DNA of 64,000 nucleotides. It comes from Phyllobacterium bourgognense (GTDB lineage: Bacteria > Pseudomonadota > Alphaproteobacteria > Rhizobiales > Rhizobiaceae). The position numbers and the translations under genes were made by a program. Position 1 is the stretch's first letter. Every line of letters begins with the position of its first letter. Under the pieces are notes generated by a model. It saw nothing but the letters and a program-made list of their open reading frames with translations. It made no database searches and was not told the DNA's origin. Positions 31,703 through 56,546 of the stretch are shown here, piece by piece. Location of the stretch: NCBI RefSeq assembly GCF_003337575.1, contig NZ_QPJM01000009.1:62001-126000 (forward strand), written 5' to 3'.

Positions 31703-31764
31703 ACGATTTCTTCCCCAATCCAGTTCGTTGTATAAACTGCTCAGACGGTCGTCACGTTGAACCG

Positions 31765-37989: not shown

Positions 37990-38037
37990 GCCGCACCGCT
38001 TTTAATGTTTCCACGGACAGTGCTTTTAGAGAGAACG

Positions 38038-38060
38038 GGAGGGTTGTGATTCAACCCCCC
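38038..38060. terminator. Hairpin between convergent cyclase and MBL gene
   Basis: GGAGGGTTG / CAACCCCCC with loop TGATT lies in the 98-bp gap between two converging genes. It probably terminates both. Confidence 0.5.
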
Positions 38061-38087
38061 GCTCTAATCGGAACAGGATTTGTCCAG

Positions 38088-38971: not shown

Positions 38972-39060
38972 TGTTTCTCTCTGTGATCGGAAAATGGCGT
39001 GGGCAATTCTGGTTTTACTCAGGGCCGTCGACAGACGATGCTCCGCCTAAAAGCGTTTTG

Positions 39061-39076
39061 CCTAGACTAACTTAGG
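39061..39076. promoter_or_regulatory. Palindromic box before PAS kinase 3
   Basis: CCTAGACTAACTTAGG: CCTA/TAGG ends in inverted orientation, 8 bp before the kinase start. It is a 16-bp relative of the recurrent box and lies between divergent genes. Confidence 0.4.
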
Positions 39077-39083
39077 TATACCG

Positions 39084-41189: not shown

Positions 41190-41472
41190 TTACTTTTTCC
41201 CGTAAATGGAACCGTTTGGATACAAACCTGATGGTGAGGGATACGGGCCGAGAGTGACCTCTGTATCTGTCACAACGCAGTTGTGATGCCCGGGACACGG
41301 AGATCGGTGCGTGGCCATAGCGGCGGCGGCATCTGTCCCGATACGGGACCAATTATTGCACCGACATATGCGGAAGTATGGGGTTATGCAGATGCGCGAC
41401 AGCAAGACTGTGCCGCGCATCGTGGAATGCTTGCTCAATGTGAAGAAGCCGGTTCCGAGCCGGCCGAGGTTG
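41190..41472. other. Intergenic region with possible short reading frame
   Basis: 283 bp. A leftward 41-residue frame (41315-41190, MATHRSPCPGHHNCVVTDTE...) has the look of a secreted-protein end (SPSGLYPNGSIYGKK) and may be the stub of a lost gene or part of a short secreted peptide. No start signal is evident. Confidence 0.3.
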
Positions 41473-42441
41473 TCAGTAGTCCCAGATGACAGGCACCCAG
41501 CGGAAGGCCTCGCCCGCAGCTGCAACACGGCCGACGGATGGGAATGCCAGATGCGTTGCCACCAGCAATTCGCCGGTTGAGGCCAGATCACGTAGAAGAT
41601 CAACCCGAACACGAGCAGCTTCCTTCGGATCATGTTCAAAGCCGTTGTACCAATCAGGCTGTTCGAAGCCGACTTGAAACACTGCGTCGCCTGCAAAGGT
41701 AAGCGCGTCCCCTTCGGAGGCCACACGGATAACGCAATGCCCCGGAGTGTGTCCGCCAGTGCGACGGGCAATCACGCCTGGTGCAATTTCAGATTCCTCA
41801 TCGAACAACTGTAGATAGTTTCGATATTCTTTCAGGAACTGTTTGGACGCCGCCCGAAGCGCATCAGGAAACCCCTGAGGCATGTTGGTCTGGGTGAAAT
41901 CTGGGGCTTCCCAGAACTTAACCTCTGCTGCCGCGACGTGGATCTTGAGGTCCGGACGGAGCTGTTCTTTAACGCCCTCTACCAGAAGACCGCCTATGTG
42001 ATCCATGTGCAGGTGGGTGAACACGATGTCGGTCACTGATGCAAGATCAATCTCAGCTGCTTCCAGTCGCTTGATCAACTGTCCAGCCCGCGGCAAGTGC
42101 AAGTCCGGATCAAGGCCAAGCCCAGCATCGAGAAGTATTGTCTGGTCACCGCTACGTACAACCACCGCATTCAGAGGCCAGTCGAACGCATCCGTGGGAA
42201 GAAACATGTTCTCCATCCACCTTGCCCGTACCTTCGGGTCTGCGTTGTGCCCCAACATTACTGTTGGCAGTGGTAGCACCCCATCACTGACCACCATAAC
42301 ATCGATATTGCCTATGCGCAGGGCGTAGCGTGAAGGAACCAGTTCGCCCTTACTCGGCTTTCCGGGATGAAAGGTATTTTCCGATGGTATGCTTGGCTGA
42401 TGCATACCTGAGGTAGGGGTTTTTGTTTCTGACTGCGACAT
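41473..42441 (-). CDS. MBL-fold metallohydrolase
   Basis: 322-residue cytoplasmic metallo-beta-lactamase-fold hydrolase. Metal ligands: HLHMDH in VFTHLHMDHIGG, His in TGGHTPGHCVIRV, Asp in FAGDAVFQVGFEQPDW, and a final His in LLVATHLAFPSVG. The architecture resembles AttM/AiiB- and ahl-lactonase-like proteins but also many uncharacterised rhizobial hydrolases; quorum quenching is a possibility only. An N-terminal ~30-residue polar tail precedes the fold. The paralog at 52047 is very similar (VPSRYALRIGNIDVMVVSDG versus VPSRYAVQVGDIDVMVISDG). Divergent from the haloperoxidase-like gene, with two palindromic boxes between. Confidence 0.9.
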   Translation of the reverse strand: MSQSETKTPTSGMHQPSIPSENTFHPGKPSKGELVPSRYALRIGNIDVMVVSDGVLPLPTVMLGHNADPKVRARWMENMFLPTDAFDWPLNAVVVRSGDQTILLDAGLGLDPDLHLPRAGQLIKRLEAAEIDLASVTDIVFTHLHMDHIGGLLVEGVKEQLRPDLKIHVAAAEVKFWEAPDFTQTNMPQGFPDALRAASKQFLKEYRNYLQLFDEESEIAPGVIARRTGGHTPGHCVIRVASEGDALTFAGDAVFQVGFEQPDWYNGFEHDPKEAARVRVDLLRDLASTGELLVATHLAFPSVGRVAAAGEAFRWVPVIWDY

Positions 42442-42856
42442 GACGCACTCCTATGTTGCTTTGACAGTGGCCAGCCACCCTCAGTTCAGCTTGCGCTAAA
42501 TGTAGAATGCCAGGATCTGACGCTCAAAGCCCTAAAGACCTTGAGAGCTTGGTGACGGCTCCCAACAGCTTTACAATTGTCGTGAGACGCTCGTAATCCA
42601 AACTTAAGTTTAGTGTGGCAGTTGATCGCTGCGACGTTGATGTGCCCCGCTTTAAGAGCAGCACACAGTCAAATTGTCTGATCCGATGTAGGCAACATAA
42701 CGACGATCGTGCCGACGTGCGTGCACACGACGAACAAGTAAAACCTAAGTATACTTACAGGGGTTCTATATTCAATTTAAAAGTAACTGATACAAGTCCG
42801 GCATTTTTGCGATGGCCATAACAACTTGTTTTTATTTTCCAACCAGGAGATTCAAC
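42442..42856. promoter_or_regulatory. Divergent promoter region with two recurrent boxes
   Basis: Boxes TCCAAACTTAAGTTTAGT (42597-42614, containing the perfect palindrome AAACTTAAGTTT) and CCTAAGTATACTTACAGG (42744-42761, containing TAAGTATACTTA). No ORF with protein character in the 415 bp. Confidence 0.55.
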
Positions 42857-43831
42857 TTGAACAATTCTTCGATGACCGCCACAAGGCGCAACGTCATGGC
42901 TGGCACGCTCTCGCTTGCGGCTGCGGCAGCAGCAAGTGCCACCCGTCCCGCAGAAGCTGCCAACAAAAAGAAGGCAGCGCAAGGTACACTCCCAACTGGT
43001 CCTGGTTATGTGACCTCCAGTGACGGTACTCGCATTTTCTTTAAGGATTGGGGTCCCAAGGACGCGCAACCCATCATGTTCCACCACGGCTGGCCACTAA
43101 GCGGTGATGACTGGGACAATCAAATGCTCTTCTTCCTTGGGAAAGGCTATCGGGTAATCGCGCATGATCGTCGCGGACACGGCCGGTCATCCCAAGTGAG
43201 TGAGGGGCACGACATGGATCACTACGCGGCGGATGTGGCCGCGGTCGTCAAACATCTCGACCTCCAAAATGCTATTCACATCGGCCACTCAACCGGAGGC
43301 GGTGAGGCAACTCGCTACGTGGCTCGTCATGGCAAGAACCGTGTGTCCAAGCTGGTACTTATCGGAGCGGTTCCGCCCATCATGGTGAAGACCGCATCCA
43401 ATCCTGGTGGTATGCCCATAGGCGCATTCGATGGATTAAGGGCAGCACTAGCTGCTAACCGCTCGCAATTCTACTATGATCTGGCCAGTGGTCCATTCTA
43501 CGGTTTCAATCGAACTGGCGTGAAAGCTTCGGACGCTATCATCAACAATTGGTGGCGGCAGGGTATGTCTGGTGCGGCAAACGCCCACTATCTCGGGATT
43601 AAAGCGTTCTCCGAGACAGACTTCACCGATGATCTGAGGATGATTGAAGTTCCTACGCTGGTGCTGCACGGCGATGACGATCAGATCGTGCCGGTTGCTG
43701 ATTCCGCAGAACTCTCAGCGAAGATTCTTAAGAAGGCCACCCTCAAGATCTACAAGGGTTTTCCGCACGGTATGGCGACAACGCATTCCGATGTGATCAA
43801 TGAGGATATCCTCAGTTTCATCAAAGGATGA
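42857..43831 (+). CDS. Tat-exported alpha/beta hydrolase (non-haem haloperoxidase-like)
   Basis: 324-residue hydrolase of the chloroperoxidase/arylesterase group. A twin-arginine leader, TATRRNVMAGTLSLAAAAAA, ends at about AEAA. Catalytic features: oxyanion region MFHHGWPLSGDDWDNQ, Ser in IGHSTGGGEATRY, Asp in LHGDDDQIVP, His in GFPHGMATTHSD. Family enzymes are perhydrolases or esterases; halogenation in vivo is doubtful. The TTG at 42857 has AGGAGA seven bases upstream and adds five residues to the ATG at 42872. A terminator follows. Divergent from the MBL hydrolase with two operator-like boxes between. Confidence 0.9.
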   Translation: MNNSSMTATRRNVMAGTLSLAAAAAASATRPAEAANKKKAAQGTLPTGPGYVTSSDGTRIFFKDWGPKDAQPIMFHHGWPLSGDDWDNQMLFFLGKGYRVIAHDRRGHGRSSQVSEGHDMDHYAADVAAVVKHLDLQNAIHIGHSTGGGEATRYVARHGKNRVSKLVLIGAVPPIMVKTASNPGGMPIGAFDGLRAALAANRSQFYYDLASGPFYGFNRTGVKASDAIINNWWRQGMSGAANAHYLGIKAFSETDFTDDLRMIEVPTLVLHGDDDQIVPVADSAELSAKILKKATLKIYKGFPHGMATTHSDVINEDILSFIKG

Positions 43832-43838
43832 ATAAATC

Positions 43839-43867
43839 TCAGAAGGTGCTCATCGAGCACCTTCTGA
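43839..43867 (+). terminator. Terminator of haloperoxidase-like gene
   Basis: TCAGAAGGTGCTC / GAGCACCTTCTGA are exact 13-bp arms with a 3-nt loop, 8 bp after the stop. Only a weak T tract (CTTTG) follows. Confidence 0.65.
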
Positions 43868-43996
43868 CTTTGCCGCTGCAAGAAGCGCTTGAACTGAACA
43901 ATATCGGCGATATCGTAACCGACGTTCAAATGACGGTCAGGTGGTATGAAGGACCCGTTTGAACGAGGCCCTTCGCGTGGCGCTCTTTAGCGCTCT

Positions 43997-44758
43997 CTAT
44001 CGTGCAGGTGGTGGGGTTGCCGTCTTCACCCATTCCGAAAATGCGACTTTGCCCAAGCGGGCACCTGCAGCCGGAACGAGGCTGCTGTCGTTTAGCACGG
44101 CACCAAAGTAACGTGTCTGGCTATCAACCAATATCTCACGGGAATCGCCGATCTGACGCAGATACGCCCCAACCGCATCGGCCATCCGAATTTTTTCCGG
44201 TCCGGCGATCTCAACAGTCCTGTTAAGCGGAGCACCAAGCACGTAGTCGGTCAGAGCATCTGCAACGTCGTCTGAGAAAATCGGCTGCATCATACCCGGT
44301 GACAGATGAATCTTATCGCCTTGGACGCCGGACTGGGCAATGCCGAACATAAATTCAAAGAACTGCGTCGAGTGCACAATCGTATACGGGATGCCTGATG
44401 CCTTGATAATTTGCTCTTGAGCCATCTTTGCTCGGAGGTATCCGCTTTCAGGGAGACGTTCTGTTCCGACGATGGAAAGAGCAAGATGATGTTTCACGCC
44501 TGCTGCTGTTTCCGCTGCCATCAAATTCCGGCCGGATTTCTCGAAGAACTCCATAACAGCCTTGTCTTCAAAATTTGGAGAATTAGCGAGATCAACGACC
44601 ACATTCGCCCCAGTAAGAGTCTCGGCAAGACCTTCACCCGTGACGGTGTTTACGCCGGAAGCCGGCGATGCGGCGACCACCTCGTGACCCTTTGCTTGAA
44701 GGCGTTTCACCAACTTGGAACCGATTAATCCAGTTCCGCCAATTACGACGATCTTCAT
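43997..44758 (-). CDS. NmrA-like NAD(P)-binding protein A
   Basis: 253-residue atypical SDR (NmrA/NAD(P)H-binding, PF13460-like). The Rossmann glycine motif is GGTGLIGSKLVKRL; VVVDLANSPNFEDKAVMEFF and HHLALSIVGTERLPESGYLRAK complete the core; the Tyr-Lys pair is not in classical YxxxK position. Members act as redox sensors or quinone/flavin reductases. The ATG at 44758 has AAGGAGC upstream. Closest paralog in the window is the protein at 49447, with which it shares most of the core; 48176 is more distant. Monocistronic here. Confidence 0.88.
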   Translation of the reverse strand: MKIVVIGGTGLIGSKLVKRLQAKGHEVVAASPASGVNTVTGEGLAETLTGANVVVDLANSPNFEDKAVMEFFEKSGRNLMAAETAAGVKHHLALSIVGTERLPESGYLRAKMAQEQIIKASGIPYTIVHSTQFFEFMFGIAQSGVQGDKIHLSPGMMQPIFSDDVADALTDYVLGAPLNRTVEIAGPEKIRMADAVGAYLRQIGDSREILVDSQTRYFGAVLNDSSLVPAAGARLGKVAFSEWVKTATPPPAR

Positions 44759-45021
44759 TGTACTGCTCCTTGAATGAGAACCTTTTGTTGGATGACTGCA
44801 ACCTATGGACAAGTGCAATGACTATGCTCCAGTGCGAGTTTCTCTGTCAGCCAAAAGAAGACTGGGCTTTATGTCCTGTGTCAAAGTCAGGTGAGAGTTC
44901 CTCCCGTCGCTGGTGGCACATTTCGAGCGTAAGCAAATATATTGGCAGGCATAGATAAACGTAGGTTGGGGGCAGCCACGTCGGAACGTTCCTGGGTTCA
45001 CAACCTTCTGGTGACCGTGAT

Positions 45022-45663
45022 CTAGTTTCTTTGCAGGTGCTCTGTTTTGCGGACCAAATCTGCGAGCGATCTGCTCTGCATCTTCCGCATCACACTCATG
45101 CGGTGTAGCTTCACCGTCATCTCGCTTATGCCGAGTTCGTAAGCGACCTGCTTATTCATTAATCCACTAACGACGGCGAACATTACCTCCTGCTCGCGTG
45201 GAGTCAGGGTTTTGGCAAGCTCCCGGATACGGATTTGCTCCGCGTCACATTTTCGTCGCTCCGTGTCCAATTGTAGGGCGTGGTCGACTGCTTCCAAGAG
45301 CTCCTGATTGACGAAGGGTTTCGTGATAAAGTCCGTCGCCCCAGCTTTCATCGCTTTCACGCTCGTTGGAATATCGGCATAGGCAGTGAGGAAAATCACC
45401 GGCAACCTGCTACCAATCGAATTTAACTCATTTTGCAGATCCAATCCTGTTCCACCAGGCATGCGAAGATCGACGACGACACAACCCGGGACGCTTATGT
45501 CAGCTGATCGGAGGAATTCGCCGCTGTTGGGAAAGGCGCATGCCCGCTTCTTTGTAACCATGAAGAGGTCTAGCAAGGCGCATCGCATTTCTTCATCGTC
45601 GTCAACCACGTATATGATTGGCTCGACCGACGTTTCCACTTTAACTTGTGTGTTTTGCGTCAT
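45022..45663 (-). CDS. FixJ-like response regulator (LuxR-type output)
   Basis: 213-residue two-component regulator. Receiver: IIYVVDDDEEM acidic pocket, Asp65 in CVVVDLRMPGGTG, Thr in VIFLTAYADIP, Lys in FITKPFVNQEL. Output [46 protein letters not shown], ending SLADLVRKTEHL. It is closest to the regulator at 36095 in the HTH ([19 protein letters not shown]). Divergent from the regulator at 46108 across a 444-bp region with two boxes. No adjacent kinase, so partner inferred among the three PAS kinases. Confidence 0.92.
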   Translation of the reverse strand: MTQNTQVKVETSVEPIIYVVDDDEEMRCALLDLFMVTKKRACAFPNSGEFLRSADISVPGCVVVDLRMPGGTGLDLQNELNSIGSRLPVIFLTAYADIPTSVKAMKAGATDFITKPFVNQELLEAVDHALQLDTERRKCDAEQIRIRELAKTLTPREQEVMFAVVSGLMNKQVAYELGISEMTVKLHRMSVMRKMQSRSLADLVRKTEHLQRN

Positions 45664-46107
45664 TGAATCGTCTCAATCAAACTAAATTCGCGCTGACAAT
45701 GCCGATGGTCACACAGACTGCTCGTCATCATCGCTGAAATTGTAGTTTACCCTTCTCGGCAACCATAGCCGAAACTCGGATGCGAAAGAGCGTATACTTT
45801 AGTTTAGGTCTTGGACTCGAAATCCTACGGTTATACTCGCGGCGGTTCGTCAATCTTCTACAAATTCCGGCGCGTACCGTGCTTGTCGCAACTCAACATC
45901 CCGTTTGTAACCAGAAAACGATTTGGCAACCTCGGCGGTACAAGCCGCAATGAAACGATTGGCGGCGGCGTCAACCTAAAACTTCGTTTAGTCGACCAGT
46001 GATGCGAAACGCCTACAATGTCGCGTTAAACCTACGGAGCTTGTCATGAGAGGAATGGTGGTGCGTCGCGATCTGCAGCATAGGCTGTGCCAGTATCGGA
46101 GGTTGAA
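45664..46107. promoter_or_regulatory. Divergent promoter region of two FixJ-like regulators
   Basis: 444 bp without a convincing gene. Boxes CGTATACTTTAGTTTAGG (45791-45808) and CCTAAAACTTCGTTTAGT (45975-45992) suggest binding by a regulator, possibly one of the two flanking ones. Confidence 0.5.
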
Positions 46108-46791
46108 ATGAACATATTTACAGGCACCCCCATTAGCGCTCAGCAAAAGCAAGCGCGTTCTGAACAAAAGCCTATCGTGTTGGTGGTTGATGATGACGAA
46201 TCGCTACGACTATCCATATGCGATCTGTTGGAATCTGTCGGGATTCAAGCGGCCGGATACGGATCTACACAAGCGCTCATGGACGCCAACGTCCTCAACC
46301 GACCGGGTTGCATAATCCTCGATGTTCGCATGCCGGGCTTGAGCGGTCTTGACTTTCAGGCCCGGCTGGCCGCAAGCGGCATTTCCGCAACGATTGTTTT
46401 CCTTACGGGGTACGGCGACATTCCGATGACAGTGCAGGCGATGAAGGCCGGCGCAGTCGAGTTCCTCACCAAGCCGTTTCGTGACCAAACATTGCTGGAC
46501 GCGGTAAGCAAAGCTATCGAAATCGACAGGGAAAAACGCGCCGAACAGCTCGAAAGCGACACTAACGTGGCACGATATCTCACGCTCACTCCTCGTGAGC
46601 GCCAGGTAATGGAGGCCGTTGTACGAGGAAAGCTAAGCAAGCAAATCGCGTTCGATCTCAACATAACGGAAATCACAGTCAAGCTACACCGGAGCAACCT
46701 GATGCGCAAAATGCAGACACCTTTTGTCACCCAATTGCTTCGAGCCTGGCAGTCGATTCCCAAGGATATACGTCACGACAATCCGCGGTGA
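46108..46791 (+). CDS. FixJ-like response regulator (LuxR-type output)
   Basis: 227-residue regulator. Receiver: IVLVVDDDESLRLSI, Asp72 in CIILDVRMPGLSG, Thr in IVFLTGYGDIPM, Lys in FLTKPFRDQTL. Output: LTPRERQVMEAVVRGKLSKQIAFDLNITEITVKLHRSNLMRKM. The C-terminus (TPFVTQLLRAWQSIP) differs from the other two regulators, and the HTH has KLSKQIAFDLNITE instead of [14 protein letters not shown]. It may therefore recognise related but distinct DNA. The ATG at 46108 has CGGAGG upstream; the GTG at 46087 is less likely. Confidence 0.92.
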   Translation: MNIFTGTPISAQQKQARSEQKPIVLVVDDDESLRLSICDLLESVGIQAAGYGSTQALMDANVLNRPGCIILDVRMPGLSGLDFQARLAASGISATIVFLTGYGDIPMTVQAMKAGAVEFLTKPFRDQTLLDAVSKAIEIDREKRAEQLESDTNVARYLTLTPRERQVMEAVVRGKLSKQIAFDLNITEITVKLHRSNLMRKMQTPFVTQLLRAWQSIPKDIRHDNPR

Positions 46792-46823
46792 TCAAATGAT
46801 GTTCATCTCTCAATGAACCCAAC

Positions 46824-47846
46824 TCAAAATAGGATATCACTCTTTGCCACAATAGGTTGCAGGTCGTTTGACTCGCCCATCATGCCCCGCATTGCTATCT
46901 CGATTCTCCGTGCGATGGACGAAATTGGTACATCGTTGGCATTGCCCTCAAATGGGTTCGATGAGTTCTCTCCGACTTTTTCCAACGAAACGAAAACCCA
47001 ACCGACAGCAACGCTGAATGGGACGTTCAGCCAAGCCGTCCAATCCGCGATGCCGGCAGACTTTCCCAATTCATAGGCAAACGGAAATAGGCCAAAAGGA
47101 ATGATGGCGACAAACATTTTTACCAAAATAACGGCTATCGAATAGTAGTTGCGGGGGTAGGGATAGTTTTTGATTAGCTTCAGTCCGCCCTGCAATCGGG
47201 AAAGATCATCAAGTCGGGCTATCAGCCCAATGAACATGTACTCGCTGATAAGATTTTGCTTGCGTAGTTTTCTGAGTGCTTCGTATTGCCAGTCAAGAAT
47301 GAGGCTTTCTTTGTCACCCGAACACGCCATTATTTTCTGCACTTCGTCATCCGACAAGTAGTTTTTCAGTTCGTCGTCAAGTGCGGAAGTGCTTTCAGGG
47401 CTTGGGATTTTGGCAAGGAAACGAATGTTGCCGGCATCGAACCTATTCTCCCAAGATCTACTGTCTCGCAAATAAAAGCGTAGAGAAGTGAGCCAAGCGA
47501 AATGGCGATAGAACATATCTTCCAATCGTGCACCCGAAGGAACATCACCCAGCTCGCACGTTGCAGAGATCAGCCTTTCGGCCAGGATGAAGCTACTGCC
47601 ATTGAGTTGCTCCGATAGCGTCAGGGCGTTGGTGCATCGTGCAAAACATTGCTGACTCTTAAATGCGAGGCTAATCGCTAGTGCCGCCCCGACGATTGTC
47701 AGTATCGGCGCTGGCACTGTCAGGAAATTCAATGTCGAAACGTGAAGGAACAAAGTTGCAAACAAAGCCCAGCCAATTAACCATTGGGTCTCCTTTCTCG
47801 TCCAAGCAAGGAAGTCGTTGACGCTATATTGCCGGCCTATATGCAT
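46824..47846 (-). CDS. Bestrophin-family membrane protein
   Basis: 340 residues of the bestrophin/UPF0187 family. These are pentameric anion (or, in some bacteria, cation) channels. Visible features: early TM QWLIGWALFATLFLHVSTLNF and PAPILTIVGAALAISLAFKSQQCFARC, where the family's N-S-S-Y-x-R-x-x-E region is replaced by KSQQCFARCTNAL. C-terminal TMs lie around ILVKMFVAIIPFGLFPFAYE, then the family motif-like VFVSLEKVGENSSNPFEGNANDVPIS, which includes the D/E-x-x-x-x-P-F-G-x-x-x-x-D-x-P element. Last gene of the leftward redox operon, 3 bp after the small GNAT gene. Confidence 0.85.
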   Translation of the reverse strand: MHIGRQYSVNDFLAWTRKETQWLIGWALFATLFLHVSTLNFLTVPAPILTIVGAALAISLAFKSQQCFARCTNALTLSEQLNGSSFILAERLISATCELGDVPSGARLEDMFYRHFAWLTSLRFYLRDSRSWENRFDAGNIRFLAKIPSPESTSALDDELKNYLSDDEVQKIMACSGDKESLILDWQYEALRKLRKQNLISEYMFIGLIARLDDLSRLQGGLKLIKNYPYPRNYYSIAVILVKMFVAIIPFGLFPFAYELGKSAGIADWTAWLNVPFSVAVGWVFVSLEKVGENSSNPFEGNANDVPISSIARRIEIAMRGMMGESNDLQPIVAKSDILF

Positions 47847-47849
47847 GGA

Positions 47850-48158
47850 TTAGCCATTTTTTTGTTTTCGAGACGATAGAGCGGAGTCAACGAGGTCATT
47901 ATATTCTGGATGCGTTTGCAAGAAACTGTGCATGAACGAGCATCTTATGACTGCTTTCTTGCCTTCCTCACGGAGTATATCGAACACCCCCTCGATTAAT
48001 GCCGCGCCTATACCCTGACTGGCAAATTCGGGAACTTCGACCTTAAAGAACACAAACTGTTCGTCCTCCAGTCGGTAGTATGCAGCTGCCCACATCCCAT
48101 CATGTATCTGGCGTTCAAAGCGATGCTTTTCCCGGTTGTCTCTGACTTGGGCATCCAT
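47850..48158 (-). CDS. Small GNAT-like acetyltransferase (YjdJ/NATD1 type)
   Basis: 102-residue minimal GNAT of the PF14542 type. The core is AAAYYRLEDEQFVFFKVEVP, the acetyl-CoA loop FASQGIGAALIEGVFDIL, and the terminal CSFMHSFLQTHPEYNDLV. That last stretch is characteristic of this family (C-x-F/Y-x-x-x-F/Y-x-x-x-H-P-E-Y). Function unknown in bacteria. The ATG at 48158 has AAGGAG upstream. It sits between an NmrA-like gene and the bestrophin gene. A second family member is at 54265. Confidence 0.88.
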   Translation of the reverse strand: MDAQVRDNREKHRFERQIHDGMWAAAYYRLEDEQFVFFKVEVPEFASQGIGAALIEGVFDILREEGKKAVIRCSFMHSFLQTHPEYNDLVDSALSSRKQKNG

Positions 48159-48175
48159 TGCAGTTATCTCCTTGC

Positions 48176-48928
48176 TCAATTGGCCATAGAGCGGGTTAGC
48201 CAATCGATGTACTGCAACGAACCCACGCGTGCTCCCTTGAACGGCAGCAGCGTGTCGTCATTGAGTTCGACGCCGTAGTACCGGGCGCTGTCGTCGGTTA
48301 TCACCTGGCGGGTATCTTCATTAGCTGCGAGATGCATTCGGGCGATTTCGTCGAGGCCGAACTGGTCGCGTCCGCCAATCTCTACGGTATCGTTCTTTGG
48401 TGCTTTCACCGCTAATTCAGCCAACATTTCTGCGACATTTTCAGCAGCTATCGGTCTGACCGCCGCCGAAGGAAGCCGAAAGCCATCTCCGTCCGCGCCC
48501 ATGTCGATCACGCCGCCGATGAACTCAAAAAATTGCGTTGAACGAAGAATGGTATAGGGCCGTCTCGCTGCCCGAATGAGGTTTTCCTGCACCATCTTCG
48601 CGCGGAAATAGTCACTCTCGACAAGGCGCGGTGTTCCTACCACTGAAAGCGCAACGTAGTGTTTGACACCAGCATCTCTTGAGGCGGCCAGAAGATTCCT
48701 GGTAGATGCCCTGAAAAAGTCAAGCGCAGAGTTGTCACCAAAGGACGCCGCGTTGGTGACGTCGATAACGACATCAGCCCCTGAAATAACGTCCCCAAGG
48801 CCTTCCCCCGTCGCGCTGTTAATCCCCAGTGAAGTGGAGGCGGCGACAACGTCGACACCTCCCTTTTCAAGTTTTTCTACGAGATGGGTTCCAATTTGCC
48901 CAGTCGCCCCCATGACGGTGATTTTCAT
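48176..48928 (-). CDS. NmrA-like NAD(P)-binding protein C
   Basis: 250-residue atypical SDR. Glycine motif GATGQIGTHLVEKL, then VVIDVTNAASFGDNSALDFF and VKHYVALSVVGTPRLVESDYFRAK, TILRSTQFFEF. It is the most diverged of three NmrA-like proteins in the window. GGGAGG precedes the ATG at 48928. Two such proteins in one operon with a membrane cytochrome b suggests electron transfer from NAD(P)H to quinones or another acceptor, but this is inference. Confidence 0.88.
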   Translation of the reverse strand: MKITVMGATGQIGTHLVEKLEKGGVDVVAASTSLGINSATGEGLGDVISGADVVIDVTNAASFGDNSALDFFRASTRNLLAASRDAGVKHYVALSVVGTPRLVESDYFRAKMVQENLIRAARRPYTILRSTQFFEFIGGVIDMGADGDGFRLPSAAVRPIAAENVAEMLAELAVKAPKNDTVEIGGRDQFGLDEIARMHLAANEDTRQVITDDSARYYGVELNDDTLLPFKGARVGSLQYIDWLTRSMAN

Positions 48929-48948
48929 CGTTTCCTCCCTGCGAAATG

Positions 48949-49353
48949 TCACTTCACCGGAATGACAGCTGGAGCGTTCTTGTTCTTAAGCAGCACAACG
49001 ATGAATTTCGCCGGTTTGGTCTTACTCGCATTTCGGCTCACCAAGTGAATGTCGGAAGGACTTTCGTAATAGGTTTCCCCAGGCGACAAGGTGACTGCTT
49101 TTTCTCCTTTGACCTGCATCACGATCGAGCCCTCCAAAACATAGACAAACGCATTTGCTTCGTGTTTGTGAATGGGTGAAGAACCTCCCGGCCCATACTC
49201 GACTGATATCATCAGCCCCTCCTTGCCGGGATAATTCGGAAGGTCCTTTCGTGTGAGCGGGGTGACCTTTGCGGTATCTTCGGCGGCAAACGCAATACCG
49301 CCATGCAGGCAAGTGGCCGCAGATACAAAAAGTGTTAGCAAAACTGCCTTCAT
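48949..49353 (-). CDS. Exported cupin-domain protein
   Basis: 134 residues with a Sec signal peptide (MKAVLLTLFVSAATCLHGGIAFA) followed by a single conserved barrel. Motif 1 is SPIHKHEANAFVYVLEGSIVM, containing H-x-H..E metal ligands, and motif 2 is VTLSPGETYYESPSDIHLVSRNA with the third His. The PGG/SPIHKHE pattern is typical of small periplasmic cupins in oxidative-stress loci. Enzymatic role is not defined; it may bind a metal or detoxify an oxidised compound. It lies between two NmrA-like genes in the leftward operon. Confidence 0.88.
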   Translation of the reverse strand: MKAVLLTLFVSAATCLHGGIAFAAEDTAKVTPLTRKDLPNYPGKEGLMISVEYGPGGSSPIHKHEANAFVYVLEGSIVMQVKGEKAVTLSPGETYYESPSDIHLVSRNASKTKPAKFIVVLLKNKNAPAVIPVK

Positions 49354-49446
49354 CGTAGAAATCCTTTTTTGAATAATGTGAACAAAGCTTCTGGCTGGGG
49401 AACTTCATCCTAATGACCGCTCAGACGGGTCACCGGATGAATTGAA

Positions 49447-50202
49447 TCACTTCGGCTGTTGAGACTGGCGGAACCAGTCTTCGAAGCCGATCTTCCCGAT
49501 CCGCGCACCGTTGCCCGGCACGATCGATTGATCGTTGAGCTCAGATCCAAAATAACGAGCATGGACATCTGCCTCGACCGTACGCGGGTCGTTGGCCGCT
49601 TTCAGATAGCGGGCAATGATTACATTCATGGGAGCACGCTCAGGACCCGCTATCTCGATCATACCGTTGAGCGGGTTCCCCAAGGCGACTTCTGCCATTG
49701 TATCGGCAACATCGTCCGATGCGATGGGCTGGAACGCTGCAGGAGACAACCGGGTGATTGTGCCGACCGTTGCTTCATCAGCAATGCCCTTCAGGAACTC
49801 AAAAAACTGGGTTGAATGGACGATCGTGTAGGGGATCGGCGATTCCTTGATGAGGCGTTCCTGGGCAAGTTTTGCTCTGAAGTAGCCATTCTCCGGCAGT
49901 CGGTCGGTTCCCACAATTGACAGGGCAATGTGGAGTTTCACGCCAGCATCGGCTTCGGCGGCAAGCAGATTGCGGCCCGATGTTTCGAAAAATTCGAGAA
50001 CGGCCTTATCTTCCCAAGAGGGCGCATTTGCCAGGTCAATGACGACTTGCGCACCGACTAATGCTTCAGTCAGACCCTCGCCGGTGATGGTGTTGACCCC
50101 CGTGTTTGGTGACGCGGCAACAACCTCGTGGCCTTTATTGCGCAGACGTACAGCGGTTTTTGACCCGATAAGCCCTGTTCCACCGATGATCACGATTTTC
50201 AT
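49447..50202 (-). CDS. NmrA-like NAD(P)-binding protein B
   Basis: 251-residue atypical SDR, GGTGLIGSKTAVRL, VVIDLANAPSWEDKAVLEFF, LHIALSIVGTDRLPENGYFRAK, closely related to the protein at 43997 over its full length. AGAAGGAG precedes the ATG. It follows the cytochrome b gene by 36 bp and precedes the cupin gene in one operon. NAD(P)H-dependent quinone reduction or redox sensing is plausible from the family but not shown by the sequence. Confidence 0.88.
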   Translation of the reverse strand: MKIVIIGGTGLIGSKTAVRLRNKGHEVVAASPNTGVNTITGEGLTEALVGAQVVIDLANAPSWEDKAVLEFFETSGRNLLAAEADAGVKLHIALSIVGTDRLPENGYFRAKLAQERLIKESPIPYTIVHSTQFFEFLKGIADEATVGTITRLSPAAFQPIASDDVADTMAEVALGNPLNGMIEIAGPERAPMNVIIARYLKAANDPRTVEADVHARYFGSELNDQSIVPGNGARIGKIGFEDWFRQSQQPK

Positions 50203-50238
50203 AACATTTCTCCTTCTTTCGGCCCTCGCGGCCGATGA

Positions 50239-51507
50239 TCAACTAGATTTCTCGACCGCATTGCTCTTCGCAAGGACTGCTTCTGTAATCGAGTTCGGCA
50301 ACCGCCGCGGCTTCTCGATCAGCCCCAGAAGCGGCATGATGACGATGAAAAATGCGAAATAATAAAGCGTCGCCAACTGGGACAGGACGATGTAGGTGCC
50401 TTCCGCGGGCCGCGATCCGAGCCAGCCGAGGAAAAGGCCATTGGCAACGAAAAGCGTGAAAAAAAGCCTGTATAATGGTCGATAGACCGCCGAACGTACC
50501 TTCGTGGTATCGAGCCACGGCGCGAAAAACAAAACGGCAATGGCGGCGAACATGGCCAATACCCCGCCGAGCTTGGAGTCGATCGGTCCGACGCTGAAAG
50601 TGATCGCACGCAGAATCGCGTAAAAGGGAAGGAAGTACCATTCAGGCACAATGTGCGCAGGCGTCTTCAGCGGGTCAGCTACAGTATAATTGTCGGGGTG
50701 GCCGAGAAAGTTCGGCATGTAAAAGACGAAATAGGCCAGAACGAGCAAGAAGACGACAATTCCAAGCGCGTCTTTGACCGTTGCGTGGGGGGTGAAGTCA
50801 ACGACGTCCGTGGGCAATTTGACGTCAATGCCAATAGGATTGTTCTGGCCCACCACGTGCAATGCCCAGATATGCAAGGCCACCACGCCAGTAAGCATGA
50901 ATGGCAGAAGATAGTGCAGCGCAAAGAAGCGATTGAGCGTCGGATTGTTGACTGAAAAACCACCCAGGAGCAATTGCTGAATCCAGTCGCCGACCACCGG
51001 AATGGCGGTGAAGAAGTTGGTGATGACGGTGGCACCCCAAAACGACATCTGTCCCCAAGGCAGGACGTAGCCCATGAATGCAGTCGCCATCATCAACAAA
51101 AAATTCATGCAGCCGAGCACCCAGAGAAGCTCTCGCGGCGACTTGAACGAGCCGTAATAGAGGCCCCTTCCGATGTGGATATAGACGGCAATGAAGAAGA
51201 AAGACGCTCCGTTCGAATGCAGGTAGCGAAGCAGCCAGCCGGAGTTCACGTCACGCATGATCTTCTCGACTGAAATAAAGGCCAGTCCCGTATCGGGAGC
51301 AAAATGCATCGCCAGCACGACGCCTGTCAGTATCTGAGAAACCAGCATGACGGTGAGGATGCCGCCGAATGAGTAGGCGTAGTTCAGGTTACGCGGAACC
51401 GGGTAGACTATGAAGGAATCGTACACCATCCTCGGCAGCGGCATGCGGGTGTCAAACCAGCGTTCAACGCCCGTCTTTGGCGTATAGATCGGACGTTCGC
51501 GTCTCAA
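50239..51507 (-). CDS. petB: Orphan cytochrome b (bc1-type)
   Basis: 422-residue cytochrome b with eight to nine TM helices. Both haem-ligand pairs are present: [11 protein letters not shown] and [11 protein letters not shown] in the first bundle region, [23 protein letters not shown] in the second. The Qo-site motif [15 protein letters not shown] is intact, so quinol oxidation is possible. No Rieske or cytochrome c1 gene is adjacent, unlike a normal pet/fbc operon, so this is a stand-alone paralog. I place the start at the TTG (51507), which has GGGAGAAACCC before it and overlaps the stop of the upstream small ORF; the longer frame to 51552 is less likely. First recognisable enzyme of the leftward redox operon. 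Confidence 0.9.
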
Positions 51508-51719
51508 CGGGTTTCTCCCTGCTGCCCGATTTCCGGCATACGGTCGCGGCACTTTTCGGACGAGATGAATCTTCGGCGGCTGCGCGCATTGGCTAGCCGA
51601 GCCGCCGCAAATGTTAAGTCGTCCGAAAGCTCCCGTCTTTCCGGCGTCAGCGCTGCATCAACGCCCCAAAGCCTCAAGATCAACGTCATTAAACTTGAAA
51701 GCGCGAAATGGGTGGTCAT
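51504..51719 (-). CDS. Small protein upstream of cytochrome b
   Basis: 71 residues, [20 protein letters not shown] then a charged helical part ([32 protein letters not shown]). One N-terminal hydrophobic stretch could be a membrane anchor. The stop overlaps the cytochrome b TTG start (TTGA), which suggests translational coupling and a shared role, perhaps as a small subunit or assembly factor. GAGGAAG lies upstream of the ATG. No known family recognised; the longer frame to 51908 runs through the bfd gene and is rejected. Confidence 0.55.
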
Positions 51720-51804
51720 CTTCGATCTTCCTCGTACCGGGTTGCGGGTTTTCACTTTGCAAAACTCAAGGGGTCTCGACCATCGTGCGCAGGACGTGTG
51801 CGTT

Positions 51805-51820
51805 CTATACTCTGGTATAG
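51805..51820. promoter_or_regulatory. Palindrome upstream of cytochrome b operon
   Basis: CTATACTCTGGTATAG: exact 6-bp arms CTATAC/GTATAG with a 4-bp spacer, 85-100 bp upstream of the small ORF and downstream of bfd. Candidate operator; GGTATAGG is also found at 53035-53042 before the MBL gene. Confidence 0.45.
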
Positions 51821-51838
51821 GGATACCTGAGTGTAGGG

Positions 51839-52021
51839 CTATGGCGTTTCGTCGGTGCCGAGCGCCTCGTCTATGATGCGGCGGATGGTGCGGGCGCAGC
51901 GGCCGCAACGAGCGCTGCAGCCGAGACAGCCGTAAACCTTACTGATCGAGCGTGTCCGCTCCACCTCGATAGCGAAGCGGACATCCTGATCAGTGAATAC
52001 GTTGCATGAACAGACAATCAT
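51839..52021 (-). CDS. bfd: Bacterioferritin-associated ferredoxin-like [2Fe-2S] protein
   Basis: 60-residue Bfd-type protein. The four cluster cysteines follow the family pattern: CSC at the N-terminus (MIVCSCNVFTDQDV) and C-x-x-C in YGCLGCSARCGRC, where an extra Cys pair is seen. Bfd reduces bacterioferritin to release iron, but Bfd-like domains also serve as electron carriers in other contexts. No bacterioferritin gene is nearby. It follows the MBL hydrolase by 25 bp in the same direction, so the pair is probably one transcript. No strong Shine-Dalgarno sequence before the ATG. Confidence 0.85.
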   Translation of the reverse strand: MIVCSCNVFTDQDVRFAIEVERTRSISKVYGCLGCSARCGRCARTIRRIIDEALGTDETP

Positions 52022-52046
52022 GATGTGATGGCCAACCTAACAGCGG

Positions 52047-52961
52047 TCAGTAGTCCCACCAGGCTGGAACCCAACGAAACAAATCACCATGGGCCGCCAC
52101 GCGACCGACAGACGGAAAGGGTATGTGCGTCGATACCAGCCACGAGCCAGTCTCTGCCAGCTCGCGCATCAGACGGAGCCGAACGCGGGTTGCCTCCTCC
52201 GGATCGTGTTCGAATCCATTGTGCCACTCGGGGTGCTCAAACGACACAGGAAATATGGCGTCGCCGCCGAACATTAGCCGTTCGCCGCCGGATGCCATGC
52301 GGACAACGCTGTGTCCGGGAGTGTGGCCGCCAGTGCGGGTGACGACTATGCCTGGTGCCACCTCGGACTCTTGATCAAACGTATGGAGCTGGCTGCGATA
52401 CTCGTCGAGGAATTGCAGTGACGCTCGTCTTGCCAACTCCGCAAGTTCAGGTGGCATTCCGGTACGAGAGAAATCGGGGGCCTTCCAGAACTCGGCCTCG
52501 GCCGCCGATACGTGGATTCGCAGGTCCGGACGCAGTTGATCCTTCACGCCGTCTACGAGCAGTCCGCCTACGTGGTCAAAGTGCATATGGGTCAACACCA
52601 CATCGGTCACGGCCGCCAGATCAACCCCGGCCGCCTTCAGTCGATGGCCGAGCTGCCCGGCGCGCGGGAAGTCGGGGTATTCCTCACCTATCCCACTGTC
52701 AATAAGGATGGTCTGGTCGCCGATGCGCACTACGACTGCATTTAGCGGCCAGTCGAACGCGTCGTGAGCAAGGAGTCTTTCGTCCAGCCAGGCACCGCGG
52801 ATTGCTGGGTCAGCGTTGGTTGCCATGGATTCAGCTGGCGGCGTTAATACTCCATCGCTGATCACCATTACGTCAATGTCGCCGACCTGTACCGCGTAGC
52901 GCGATGGAACCGACTCGTCGATTCCCGCCTTGCCGGCGAGTGGGGTGTTGTCGAAGCTCAT
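52047..52961 (-). CDS. MBL-fold metallohydrolase
   Basis: 304-residue metallo-beta-lactamase-fold hydrolase, paralog of the protein at 41473. Metal motifs: VLTHMHFDHVGG (HxHxDH), TGGHTPGHSVVRM, FGGDAIFPVSFEHPEW and LVSTHIPFPSVG. No signal peptide. The ATG at 52961 has AGGAGA upstream and is preferred over the extension to 53099. It is followed by the Bfd-like gene. Pairing of an MBL protein with an iron-sulfur electron carrier may indicate a persulfide dioxygenase-like or redox function, but the Asp/His layout does not prove it. Confidence 0.9.
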   Translation of the reverse strand: MSFDNTPLAGKAGIDESVPSRYAVQVGDIDVMVISDGVLTPPAESMATNADPAIRGAWLDERLLAHDAFDWPLNAVVVRIGDQTILIDSGIGEEYPDFPRAGQLGHRLKAAGVDLAAVTDVVLTHMHFDHVGGLLVDGVKDQLRPDLRIHVSAAEAEFWKAPDFSRTGMPPELAELARRASLQFLDEYRSQLHTFDQESEVAPGIVVTRTGGHTPGHSVVRMASGGERLMFGGDAIFPVSFEHPEWHNGFEHDPEEATRVRLRLMRELAETGSWLVSTHIPFPSVGRVAAHGDLFRWVPAWWDY

Positions 52962-53418
52962 GTCAATCTCCTGCTGAGTAGCGTTTCGTGATTGCATTAG
53001 TCGTCGATTTGAGATGGAGGCGGAATCGGCCTGTGGTATAGGCTTCTTATGCCCGACGAATAGGTGGAACACCGAGAAGTTCTCGTGCCCTTGAACCATG
53101 GGTTAAGTCGGCTGCATCAGCTGGCTGGGTGCTGTAGTCAATTCGAGAATGCCGATAAACAGTTCAGGTGCCGCCAATCAACACTCCAGAATTGTAGTGC
53201 CAAGGATCGGATGAAACTTAGTGTTGGCTCCCGGTCATCAGGGATGAAAATCGGCGAGCGGATGACGAAACCCAGACTTCCCAGCCGCAATCCAGGCCAC
53301 TCTAACCAGAAGAATAGCACGGCTTCACACTTGGTAGGATAGTCTGCGTGCGCGGGATGACGGCACATACCGCTGTACAAAATGCGGGTAACTGAATGTT
53401 CCGGAGGCTAGAGGCGGC
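52962..53418. other. Intergenic region between divergent MBL and TetR-like genes
   Basis: 457 bp. Contains CTGTGGTATAGG (53031-53042) related to the palindrome before the cytochrome b operon. Short frames here have no protein character. Confidence 0.4.
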
Positions 53419-54099
53419 GTGCAACTGAATTTGAGGTCATTGACAGGACGAAACGAAATTCCGTTTGAGGACAGTCTTCAATCTTCGGATATCAGGACGA
53501 CCATTCTGCAAACGTCCATGCGGTTGTTCCAAGTCAATGGTTATGTCGGCACCTCGGTAGAGTGCATTGCCCTTGAGTCGTCGTGCAGTATGACCGCAGT
53601 GCACGAAGAATTTACGGATAGGATTGGGATATTCGGCGCGATCGTATCTGATGTTGTCGAACAAGGACTCCAGTTGCGCATACACAAGGACGACAACGCG
53701 ATTGATCTAGGCACCGTGCTGATGGAACATGGTCGACAGATCGTATCCCTGTCCGAAACGTCCGATCTGTTGTTCCTGTACCGCTTGACGGTGTGGGAAT
53801 CGGCGGCGGCTCCGGAGTTGGCCAGCGCATTTTTTGAATACGGTCCTCGTCGGTTGTCAGTGCGAATTGCGAAGCAAATCATGAACGACTGTGAACAATT
53901 TGGCATTCAGGCCGACGTGACCCGAGCCATCTCGAACTGGATGGCTACTCTGCTCTACGCTCAAATTCACCTGAGATGCTTGAGCAGAGTTTCATCAGCA
54001 TCGCAAGAGCAGATGACACACGAAGCGATAGGCTTTTTACTCGATGCAATTCTGCAGAACGCTCGGGCATCTCGAAACAATCCAATCGGGAGAAGCTGA
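53419..54099 (+). CDS. TetR-like regulator with degenerate HTH
   Basis: 226 residues with TetR architecture: an N-terminal HTH region RTTILQTSMRLFQVNGYVGT..ECIALESSCSMTAVHEEFTDRIGIF and an all-helical C-terminal domain containing TSDLLFLYRLTVWESAAAPE and FFEYGPRRLSVRIA, as in AcrR-type regulators. The recognition helix differs from the usual VSKGTIYxYFxSKE pattern (here CSMTAVHEEFTDR), so DNA binding may be altered or lost. GGAGGC lies before the GTG start. Target unknown; the divergent MBL gene is a candidate. Confidence 0.75.
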   Translation: MQLNLRSLTGRNEIPFEDSLQSSDIRTTILQTSMRLFQVNGYVGTSVECIALESSCSMTAVHEEFTDRIGIFGAIVSDVVEQGLQLRIHKDDNAIDLGTVLMEHGRQIVSLSETSDLLFLYRLTVWESAAAPELASAFFEYGPRRLSVRIAKQIMNDCEQFGIQADVTRAISNWMATLLYAQIHLRCLSRVSSASQEQMTHEAIGFLLDAILQNARASRNNPIGRS

Positions 54100-54100
54100 A

Positions 54101-54118
54101 CCTAGACGAAAGTATAGC
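54101..54118. promoter_or_regulatory. Weak relative of recurrent box
   Basis: CCTAGACGAAAGTATAGC after the TetR-like gene, 150 bp before the small GNAT gene. The left half matches the kinase 3 box (CCTAGAC). Confidence 0.25.
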
Positions 54119-54264
54119 GTAGCCAGCAATCAAGTAGGATAGCTGGCCTGACGAGCGGATTCCATAATCGTCAAATTCCCCGCCACTCAATCCATCCACA
54201 ATAGCCGCTTGAAGTTCGGTCGATAGACTATGGGGACTTACAGCCGCCAATCTTGGAGTAAGAA

Positions 54265-54552
54265 ATGCTCGCCAATGCCATTGTTGAAGACAACCCCACT
54301 TTCAACCGTTACGAGATGCCGATAGCCGACGGTCTCATTGCCGCGGCGTATTACAGGACTGAGGGTCATATTGTGATTTTAACCCACACGGAAGTGCCAT
54401 TCCAATATTCGGGCGAAGGCATCTGTTCACAGTTGGCGAGGGGGGTATTCGACATAATACGCGAGAGTGGCCGCAAGGTAATGCCAACTTGTACGTTCAT
54501 GGTAAAATTCGCGGGTCAACATCCAGAGTATAGCGATCTGATCGTTGGCTGA
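54265..54552 (+). CDS. Small GNAT-like acetyltransferase (YjdJ/NATD1 type)
   Basis: 95 residues of the same minimal GNAT family as 47850: AAAYYRTEGHIVILTHTEVP, acetyl-CoA loop FQYSGEGICSQLARGVFDII (with IC in place of the common IA), and the family tail CTFMVKFAGQHPEYSDLI. GGAGTAAGAA is before the ATG. It is read rightwards and followed by the PhyR-like gene. The repeat of this rare small family in one window supports a shared pathway, function unknown. Confidence 0.85.
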   Translation: MLANAIVEDNPTFNRYEMPIADGLIAAAYYRTEGHIVILTHTEVPFQYSGEGICSQLARGVFDIIRESGRKVMPTCTFMVKFAGQHPEYSDLIVG

Positions 54553-54692
54553 CTGATACCGAAGTCCTCTTTACGAATACATCTTGAGCCAGGCACGCAC
54601 CACTGGTGAACAGGTCTAAGCTCCAGAACCTGGTTTTCATAGTAAGCGGTTTGCCGCACTGTTTAATTCCGGTGTCACAGGACTCCAAATCA

Positions 54693-55145
54693 ATGTCATT
54701 GTCCGCTCGTATAACTCCGCACTTGCCTTGTCTTCGGCGCTTTGCGCACGCCATCGCGGGTTCACAATATCGGGGCGACGCCTATGTAGCTGCCACTCTG
54801 GAGAGTCTCATTCACGACATAGAGATTTTCCCACACACCAGTTCTGATCGCGTGGGCCTGTGCAAGCTCTTTCTCAGATTTTTTAATTCGGTAGATGGGT
54901 CCGAAATTGGGCAGAGAAAGCAAGTGTTTGCTGGATTCAAGTCGTCTACGACAGCGCGTCAAGCACTTCTTTTGACTGCCATTGAAGGTTTCAGCGAGGC
55001 CGAGACAATGGAGATCCTCGAGGTGACCGAAGATGTGTTGCATGCGCTACTGGAGGATGCATCTGACGAACCCGTCGGCGCATCGCGATCGGCATCTTCA
55101 ATTCGCCGGAATATCCACATACTGCCGCGAAGATCCAACGTATAG
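54693..55145 (+). CDS. phyR: PhyR-type sigma-like protein lacking the receiver domain
   Basis: 150-residue protein that matches the N-terminal sigma(EcfG)-like half of PhyR, the anti-anti-sigma factor of the alphaproteobacterial general stress response. It starts MSLSARITPHLPCLRRFAHA, then GDAYVAATLESLIHDIEIFP and SSDRVGLCKLFLRFF (sigma2-like), and ARQALLLTAIEGFSEAETMEILEV (sigma4-like). PhyR continues into a receiver domain (IIEDEPLIAMD...); here the frame ends after the linker with IRRNIHILPRRSNV and no receiver is found in any frame downstream. It could be a decaying copy or a constitutive NepR ligand. The frame extends upstream to 54606, but ATG 54693 matches PhyR starts. Confidence 0.8.
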   Translation: MSLSARITPHLPCLRRFAHAIAGSQYRGDAYVAATLESLIHDIEIFPHTSSDRVGLCKLFLRFFNSVDGSEIGQRKQVFAGFKSSTTARQALLLTAIEGFSEAETMEILEVTEDVLHALLEDASDEPVGASRSASSIRRNIHILPRRSNV

Positions 55146-55365
55146 CGGGTGAATGCGCCTCGTGATCTCTCGGCAATTAAACTACAGTAGATCAAACCAA
55201 CTGCAAAGCCGACCGTTGTCATCGCAGCACACATACATATTCAGCAGATCATGTGCGAACGTTGCGGTTCACCCTCGACGGAGAGTGGGCAAACCATGGT
55301 TCTATAGATTTGGAGGGCGTTTTTAGGCTCTGTGGGCCTCATTTTTCGAATGTCTGGAGTCTGCA

Positions 55366-56289
55366 ATGCGCTTTTACTTTTTAGTGGCCCTTATAATTGG
55401 AACGTTTGCGGGTATATCGGCAGTGCCGGCAGCAAATGGCACGATTATCGATGGCAAGTCGGACGTGGAGGGGGTCGCTTATCACTACCTTTTGGCGCAG
55501 GGTGGGCCGCAAACAGTAGTGCTGCTGCATGGCTGGGGTACCACATCATACATGTGGCGTCATGTGATGCCGCAATTGGCGGCTAAAGGGTATACAGTTC
55601 TCGCGCCGGATCTACGTGGTCTGGGCGACACCGCCAAACCTCTGGCCGGCTATGATAAGGCTTCGATAGCCGAGGACGTTCGAAAGCTGGTGAGCAATCT
55701 GGGCATCGGTCCGTCGGTGAACCTCGTCGGCCATGACATGGGCGGCATGGTCGTCTATGCTTATGCGGCCAAACATCCCAATGACGTTGAGACACTGGCG
55801 ATTCTGGATGTTCCTCTCCCCGGCATTGAGCCTTGGGACGAACTGATCCAGGGCCCTCGTACTTGGCATTTTCGCTTCCACTCTGTCCGCGATGTTCCGG
55901 AAATGCTTATCGCAGGCCGTGAACTCGAATATCTCAAATGGTTCCACACTGCCGAGGGCGTTAATTCGCGCGCCTTCGACAACGAAGCCGATGAGTTTTA
56001 CGGACGCTCATATGCTCAACCGGGGGCACTTCGGGCTGGTTTTGAATATTATCGTGCATTTCCCAAAGACGTGGAAGCTAACAGATTATTTTCCATCGAA
56101 AAGCTACAGATGCCGGTTCTTGCCATGAGTGGAGTTGGGGGCATGGGACTGGAGTATGGCAACCATATCCGCCACGTCGCAAAAAACGTGCGGGGCGTGG
56201 TCGTGGAAGGTTCTGGCCATTGGATCCCTGAAGAGCAGCCTGCAGCCGTCACGAAAGCACTGATCGAATTTCTTCCTGCACCCATGTGA
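55366..56289 (+). CDS. Exported alpha/beta hydrolase (epoxide hydrolase-like)
   Basis: 307-residue hydrolase with a signal peptide MRFYFLVALIIGTFAGISAV. Motifs of the epoxide hydrolase/haloalkane dehalogenase group: VVLLHGWGTTSYMW (oxyanion), Asp nucleophile in VGHDMGGMVVYAYA, cap-domain segment with FDNEADEFYGRSYAQPGALR, and catalytic His in VEGSGHWIPEEQPAAV. An Asp rather than Ser nucleophile favours epoxide or haloalkane hydrolysis. The broken hydrolase at 15048 belongs to the same group and is exported too. It follows the PhyR-like gene by 220 bp. Confidence 0.88.
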   Translation: MRFYFLVALIIGTFAGISAVPAANGTIIDGKSDVEGVAYHYLLAQGGPQTVVLLHGWGTTSYMWRHVMPQLAAKGYTVLAPDLRGLGDTAKPLAGYDKASIAEDVRKLVSNLGIGPSVNLVGHDMGGMVVYAYAAKHPNDVETLAILDVPLPGIEPWDELIQGPRTWHFRFHSVRDVPEMLIAGRELEYLKWFHTAEGVNSRAFDNEADEFYGRSYAQPGALRAGFEYYRAFPKDVEANRLFSIEKLQMPVLAMSGVGGMGLEYGNHIRHVAKNVRGVVVEGSGHWIPEEQPAAVTKALIEFLPAPM

Positions 56290-56546
56290 TTGCCACCCCA
56301 TCGGGTCGCTGCGGCGGACACGGCAAGTGGATGGCAGAGAGCCATCTCGCCGTTGGCAGAAACGGGATAAGCGAAAGCCGATCCAGCCAAACACGTCGTT
56401 GGAAATCCTCAACGATAATAGCCTAATGTTGCTTTGGGTTTTGCGACCAATGCGTGATACTGGAACCGTCCAGGTATCCGGGAGCGCGCCCTATCGCCGG
56501 GCTGGCGTCTTTCATTCTTCTTCGCATCTCCACATAGCCGTTTGCG

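Follow-up and report, generated by a model that had tools for sequence, protein, structure and literature searches.

The receiver domain of PhyR is generally regarded as the gate on its activity. A short gene of Phyllobacterium bourgognense, which codes for the sigma-like part of PhyR with no receiver attached, raises the question of whether this part can be kept in nature as a protein of its own and what it would then do to the stress response of its host. The gene (hereafter the mimic) lies on contig NZ_QPJM01000009.1 (C9) of assembly GCF_003337575.1, in a stretch of 64,000 nt (positions 62,001-126,000) that was analysed as a whole and is called the window here. Table 1 lists the mimic with its parts and neighbours.

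Table 1. Position of the mimic, its parts and adjoining features in the window
Feature	Position	Strand	Remarks
Mimic, coding sequence	54693..55145	+	150 aa and stop; within open frame 54606-55145 (+)
PhyR_sigma2 (PF22029) match	54711..54872	+	C9:116711-116872; 70.7 bits in contig search, 69.6 in protein search
Loop joining sigma2- and sigma4-like helices, residues 70-85	54900..54947	+	site of alpha4 in PhyR
PhyR_sigma-like (PF22233) match	54951..55070	+	C9:116951-117070; 54.1 bits in contig search, 52.1 in protein search
Tail of out-of-frame linker and receiver-start DNA	55069..55145	+	1-nt deletion relative to phyR; homology to about 55139
Block common to the window and genome G005	12661..56476		92-95% DNA identity, interrupted, about 44 kb; probably horizontally transferred
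Small GNAT acetyltransferase gene (PF14542)	54265..54552	+	just upstream of the mimic; 70% identical relative in the G276 cluster
Alpha/beta hydrolase gene	55366..56289	+	just downstream of the mimic; Pfam
Usp-like gene	56547-57434	-	one in-frame stop; both halves under the Pfam Usp cut-off; just outside the shared block

Domain content and loss of the receiver

A PhyR sigma-like domain without a receiver was originally predicted at this place, and the domain searches confirm it well above what chance would give. Both sigma-like Pfam domains of PhyR are matched by the mimic above their cut-offs of 27 bits (Table 1), no match to Response_reg or Sigma70_r2 was obtained at E≤1, and Sigma70_r4_2 scored 14 bits, under its cut-off of 25.7. 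The NCBIfam PhyR model NF006623 (258 positions) is covered by the mimic only at positions 2-131 with 97.3 bits, which fails the cut-off of 240, and the full PhyR of the host reaches 369.1 bits with the same model. The two proteins share 53% identity over 143 aligned columns. Because a receiver was tested for and found absent, the mimic is not regarded as PhyR in the full sense; judged from its sequence, it is a PhyR-derived, receiver-less sigma-factor mimic. Its start is likely the ATG at 54693, since in the comparison with the second copy of the gene, found in the congener G005, the 140 bp before this codon show 81% identity with 10 gap positions whereas the 150 codons align gap-free.

The way in which the receiver was lost can be traced by DNA homology. 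Against a DNA profile of 20 phyR genes of the genus, both short copies align from codon 1 to positions 469 and 474 of 792, with 187.6 and 200.8 bits, and both have a 1-nt gap directly past the sigma4-like part. Past the gap, ungapped identity to the phyR consensus is maximal at offset +1 (38/80 and 41/80), a level reached by none of 5000 shuffles for either copy with offsets of ±2 allowed. The frameshifted tail scored alone with the DNA profile gave 3.8 bits in the G005 copy and no match of at least 0 bits in the window copy; scores above 3.8 bits were returned by 2 of 1000 shuffles and 6 of 974 control stretches. Support for the frameshift is accordingly drawn from the collinear fixed-position test and not from tail-only scoring, the two copies not being independent of each other. 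On this DNA homology, the mimic has lost its receiver through a frameshift of 1 nt located past its sigma4-like part. The protein thus does not stop in the linker as plainly as was predicted; its last ~25 residues are read from linker and receiver-start DNA in a shifted frame. A tblastn search of 53001-57600 with the genome's own receiver revealed no collinear receiver downstream of the mimic, and together with the remnant comparison it found nothing recognisable of a receiver beyond the frameshifted start. The best tblastn match (E 5e-4) lies inside the Usp-like gene on the opposite strand and was rejected.

Selection and conserved residues

Between the mimic and the G005 copy, 26 substitutions fall on the three codon positions as 5/6/15, without stops or gaps, and dN/dS is 0.23 (bootstrap 0.10-0.54, one pair of copies). 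As the truncation is common to both copies, these substitutions postdate it by parsimony. In 20,000 runs of a neutral simulation 17.8 amino-acid changes were expected and 11 are observed (P 0.0036); a stop-free frame is expected in 52% of the runs and hence gives no evidence of constraint. The other two forward frames of the pair have dN/dS of 1.3 and 1.6. For comparison, the TetR and GNAT genes of the shared block show values of 0.37 and 0.29, and its hydrolase, NmrA-like, metallo-hydrolase-like and cytochrome b genes 0.05-0.14.

In addition, divergence from phyR at second codon positions is 0.51 in the receiver remnant, read in the ancestral frame, compared with 0.14 in sigma2 and 0.12 in sigma4, whereas the same region is the most conserved one among the 20 PhyRs of the genus (0.011 versus 0.027 for sigma2 and 0.050 for sigma4). 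Since the remnant diverged far more than sigma2 and sigma4 did, the truncation is probably old and the sigma parts were constrained afterwards. The selection test comprises 26 substitutions in a single pair, and the stem branch mixes time before and after the truncation; within this scope, the mimic is apparently under purifying selection. The dN/dS comparison thus gives no sign of the relaxed selection by which the original prediction would have recognised a pseudogene. With regard to the two marks of a pseudogene, the frame is disrupted relative to the ancestor by the 1-nt gap, and the remaining frame shows constraint in the one pair available.

Residue conservation follows the same division. 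Of the positions that never vary among 38 full PhyRs, the mimic retains 25/26 in sigma2 and 7/7 in sigma4 (together 32/33), 1/6 in the loop and 1/3 in the frameshifted linker, and the G005 copy keeps 24/26, 7/7, 1/6 and 1/3, respectively. Retention in the sigma parts of the mimic exceeds that in its loop with a Fisher p of 6e-5, a figure whose loop alignment hinges on gap placement. The reference alignment holds 38 of the 42 PhyR loci fetched, L041, L042, L046 and L057 being left out for a mismatch with the start-motif filter. The alpha4 loop of the mimic is 7 residues shorter than in these 38 proteins. The alpha4 helix of PhyR has been assigned a role in NepR binding and likened to a "molecular doorstop" that keeps the receiver from displacing NepR (PMC12148442). 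That alpha4 loop and receiver are both gone fits such a doorstop role, but the loss of the loop may weaken binding of NepR to the mimic.

The AlphaFold2 model of the mimic (pLDDT 75.2, pTM 0.69) contains three sigma2 and three sigma4 helices, with pLDDT below 50 at residues 69-82 and 127-150. Foldseek returned 18 matches to this model at E≤0.001, consisting of 17 PhyR chains and one chain of an RpoE-NepR complex (5UXX). The PhyR entries include 2LFW and 3T0Y, which are titled PhyR sigma-like or anti-anti-sigma domain with NepR and whose PhyR chains have 157 and 142 aa.

Relatives, the shared block and the host pathway

Twenty genomes of the genus yielded 22 listed matches, namely 20 PhyRs whose open frames measure 270-340 aa, plus the copies of the window and of G005. 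The G005 copy is the same truncated gene with 93% identity, and the other 18 of the 20 genomes are without the mimic, so that the absence from relatives held against a functional gene in the original prediction is found in most of them. Wider surveys gave a match in 334 of 394 genomes of the family and 302 of 397 of the order. Among the best ~150 family matches listed, three frames are shorter than 240 aa, those of the window, G005 and genome G276 (internal stop), and among the best ~150 order matches listed the window copy is the only frame below 249 aa; further receiver-less PhyRs may exist outside the matches listed. The only locus obtained when genome contigs were scanned for close relatives, UICE01000004.1, is taken as the G005 genome. 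Phage records gave no relative of the mimic, nor did viral contigs in a search for close relatives only. Plasmid records gave 23 matches, all below 60% identity, and the four that were frame-checked (H5-H8) are all 265-330 aa long and end in receiver sequence. Three RepC genes were found on contigs other than that of the window, although in a draft assembly the contig of the window may nevertheless belong to a plasmid. In the tree, the mimic sits on a long branch (1.17) that falls between the PhyRs of the genus and the PhyRs from outside it, with supports of 89/82 and 96/94; a clade of the mimic with a second phyR copy of G276 is neither demonstrated nor rejected (p-AU 0.165).

The mimic belongs to the block common to the window and G005. 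Seven block genes including the mimic have dS of 0.10-0.22 between the two genomes, whereas at the canonical locus dS is 1.40 for NepR and saturated for PhyR and EcfG; the low values in the block against those near or at saturation suggest that the block moved recently. It carries genes for NmrA-like proteins, a metallo-beta-lactamase-fold protein, alpha/beta hydrolases, PAS histidine kinases, response regulators with a LuxR-type domain and the small GNAT adjoining the mimic. The universal stress protein reported beside the mimic is present as a Usp-like gene, but an in-frame stop breaks it up and its place is just beyond the shared block.

Several other features of this region were noticed. 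An alpha/beta hydrolase at 15048-16099 (+) is divided between two overlapping frames. An adenylate/guanylate cyclase catalytic domain (PF00211) at 36730-37989 (+), in the gene region 36056-37989, directly follows a gene at 36056-36733 (+) called regulator-like from its sequence. The shared block also has a cytochrome b gene at 50239-51552 (-), near which no other bc1 genes were noticed and in whose G005 copy the aligned frame contains one stop. A 59-bp stretch (56420-56478) at the right end of the block matches G005 again ~7 kb further on, and 12487-12641, just left of the block, matches G005 well right of it; both are possible traces of block insertion or rearrangement.

A comparable arrangement occurs in G276, which belongs to another genus. 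There the second phyR copy (L072, G276:C12, 1-5001) stands amid a cluster resembling the block, with 70% identity for GNAT, 78% and 73% for NmrA-like proteins and 57% for the hydrolase (105 aa), and a cupin-like gene beside the phyR copy resembles one in the block of the window. In this copy a 1-nt gap lies close to the corresponding site, and the match ends shortly past the receiver start; the sequence after it resembles what we take to be a transposase frame. The arrangement hints, short of proof, that a complete accessory phyR was part of such clusters.

One alternative is that the mimic is a decaying remnant, a functionless frameshifted phyR copy in which disabling changes have yet to accumulate. 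Its origin by frameshift, its absence from 18 of the 20 genomes, the likewise frameshifted and shortened copy in the similar cluster of G276, the long branch and the share of neutral simulations that stay stop-free all agree with decay. Nevertheless, this alternative is unlikely, though it deserves more weight than those below, because even the upper bound of dN/dS (0.54) and the result of the neutral simulation speak for constraint, the sigma parts were held while the receiver remnant diverged, and all but one of the invariant sigma2 and sigma4 residues are retained.

Full PhyR, NepR and EcfG, on which the mimic could act, were looked for elsewhere in the genome, as originally proposed. The host has a single full PhyR of 264 aa and a single NepR, and adjoining NepR on contig C14 lies a sigma gene that we class as EcfG-type because of its position and its matches to Sigma70 profiles. 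Apart from PhyR and the mimic, PF22029 matches in four places, the EcfG-type gene and three further ECF sigmas, all of which pass the cut-offs for sigma-70 regions 2 and 4. G005 likewise has a single NepR match, making one NepR per carrier genome. Although phyR is usually linked to nepR and ecfG (PMC8103513), the mimic is not, the only NepR match being on C14 and the mimic on C9. The motif GGAAC-N15-19-GTT of EcfG-type promoters occurs 9 times at the canonical locus L007 (G000:C14:34000-46000) versus 1.7 expected, once closely upstream of phyR, an enrichment as expected for the core of an EcfG regulon. None was found upstream of the mimic, the 14 matches in the window (9.2 expected) all lying elsewhere, and relaxed forms were absent over 53901-54700. 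A sigma-70 scan of 54100-55400 gave 2 sites versus 1.1 expected, and the ribosome-binding stretch of the mimic is weak as judged by eye.

A changed partner is less probable still. Here the mimic would be in use, but would bind another anti-sigma factor or hold NepR so as to buffer or damp the response. The loss of the alpha4 loop, the long branch and the three further ECF sigma genes could be understood in this way, and NepR-like antagonists of PhyR illustrate that paralogues can reverse the sign of an effect (PMC6599016); however, the mimic retains the invariant sigma2 and sigma4 residues of full PhyRs, and a second NepR was found in neither carrier. That the mimic is a real small ECF sigma factor driving transcription is hardly credible, for although its model has a sigma2-sigma4 fold and the true ECF sigmas of the genome match PF22029 too, it fails both sigma-70 cut-offs that the four ECF sigmas tested pass, and the sigma-like domains of PhyR are said to have degenerate contacts to promoter DNA and to RNA polymerase (PMC8103513).

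Proposed mechanism and known systems

The reading preferred here, to which we give about an even chance, is that the mimic is a selected free-standing PhyR sigma-like domain that binds the NepR of its host unphosphorylated. An accessory phyR on a transferable block would have lost its receiver by the 1-nt frameshift, and the remaining sigma-factor mimic would have been retained by purifying selection, for which the statistics come from one pair. It would bind the single NepR of the host through its conserved sigma2- and sigma4-like parts, and as no receiver covers these parts, binding would need no phosphorylation. The original statement that NepR is sequestered only after phosphorylation is too strict in any case, as in some species unphosphorylated PhyRs reportedly make contact with NepR (PMC12148442; PMC4438053). 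The mimic would then be an unswitched, probably weak titrator of NepR that shifts the stress set-point, presumably upwards. Weak titration following the loss of alpha4 could avoid harmful over-activation of the pathway; in Sinorhizobium meliloti, deleting rsiA1 is reportedly lethal through over-activation (PMC4814048), and lethal over-activation is also mentioned elsewhere (PMC6599016). A mild set-point effect would fit the missing EcfG-type promoter, the weak ribosome-binding stretch and the eroded alpha4 loop.

In a bolder form, the mimic would be a natural, selected "unlocked" anti-anti-sigma factor from which the receiver was cut off and the alpha4 doorstop then lost, making the mobile block a permanently open key to the stress response of its host. 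We hold this form to be possible but somewhat short of probable, a grading set with the stop-free frame carrying no weight. If it is true, the block could determine the stress state in whichever alphaproteobacterium has a compatible NepR, the receiver gate could be discarded in evolution, and accessory DNA could tune the stress set-point of a host. The mimic would also allow the alpha4 doorstop idea to be tested on a natural case, with receiver and alpha4 features gone and sigma2 and sigma4 residues retained.

A natural receiver-less mimic on a transferable block is, as far as its sequence tells, a new variation on the known partner-switching component PhyR and apparently under selection. Titles and abstracts searched mentioned no natural receiver-less PhyR; their coverage of the literature is limited, so this negative weighs little. 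The mimic shares PhyR-type sigma2- and sigma4-like domains with PhyR itself but has no receiver and hence no phospho-switch, its alpha4 loop is shorter with the invariant residues mostly gone, and it sits on a transferred block and not beside nepR and ecfG. Its domain content is that of the isolated PhyR sigma-like domains in 2LFW and 3T0Y, which are bound to NepR, and by this analogy it most likely acts like them; nevertheless, those are laboratory constructs whereas the mimic is a gene found in nature, whose tail is out of frame and whose loop is reduced. EcfG-type ECF sigmas have the same sigma2-sigma4 layout, and Foldseek matched the model to the RpoE-NepR complex 5UXX as well, but the mimic shows no match to Sigma70 region 2 and only a sub-threshold one to region 4. 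RsiB1 and RsiB2 of S. meliloti resemble the mimic as extra PhyR copies beyond the single-copy scheme (PMC4814048), yet they are described there as PhyR proteins, and the single S. meliloti plasmid copy that was frame-checked retains its receiver. NepR2-type antagonists of PhyR, like the mimic, represent accessory paralogues tuning the same partner switch (PMC6599016), but they are NepR-like and lower the response, whereas the mimic would stand on the opposite side of the switch.
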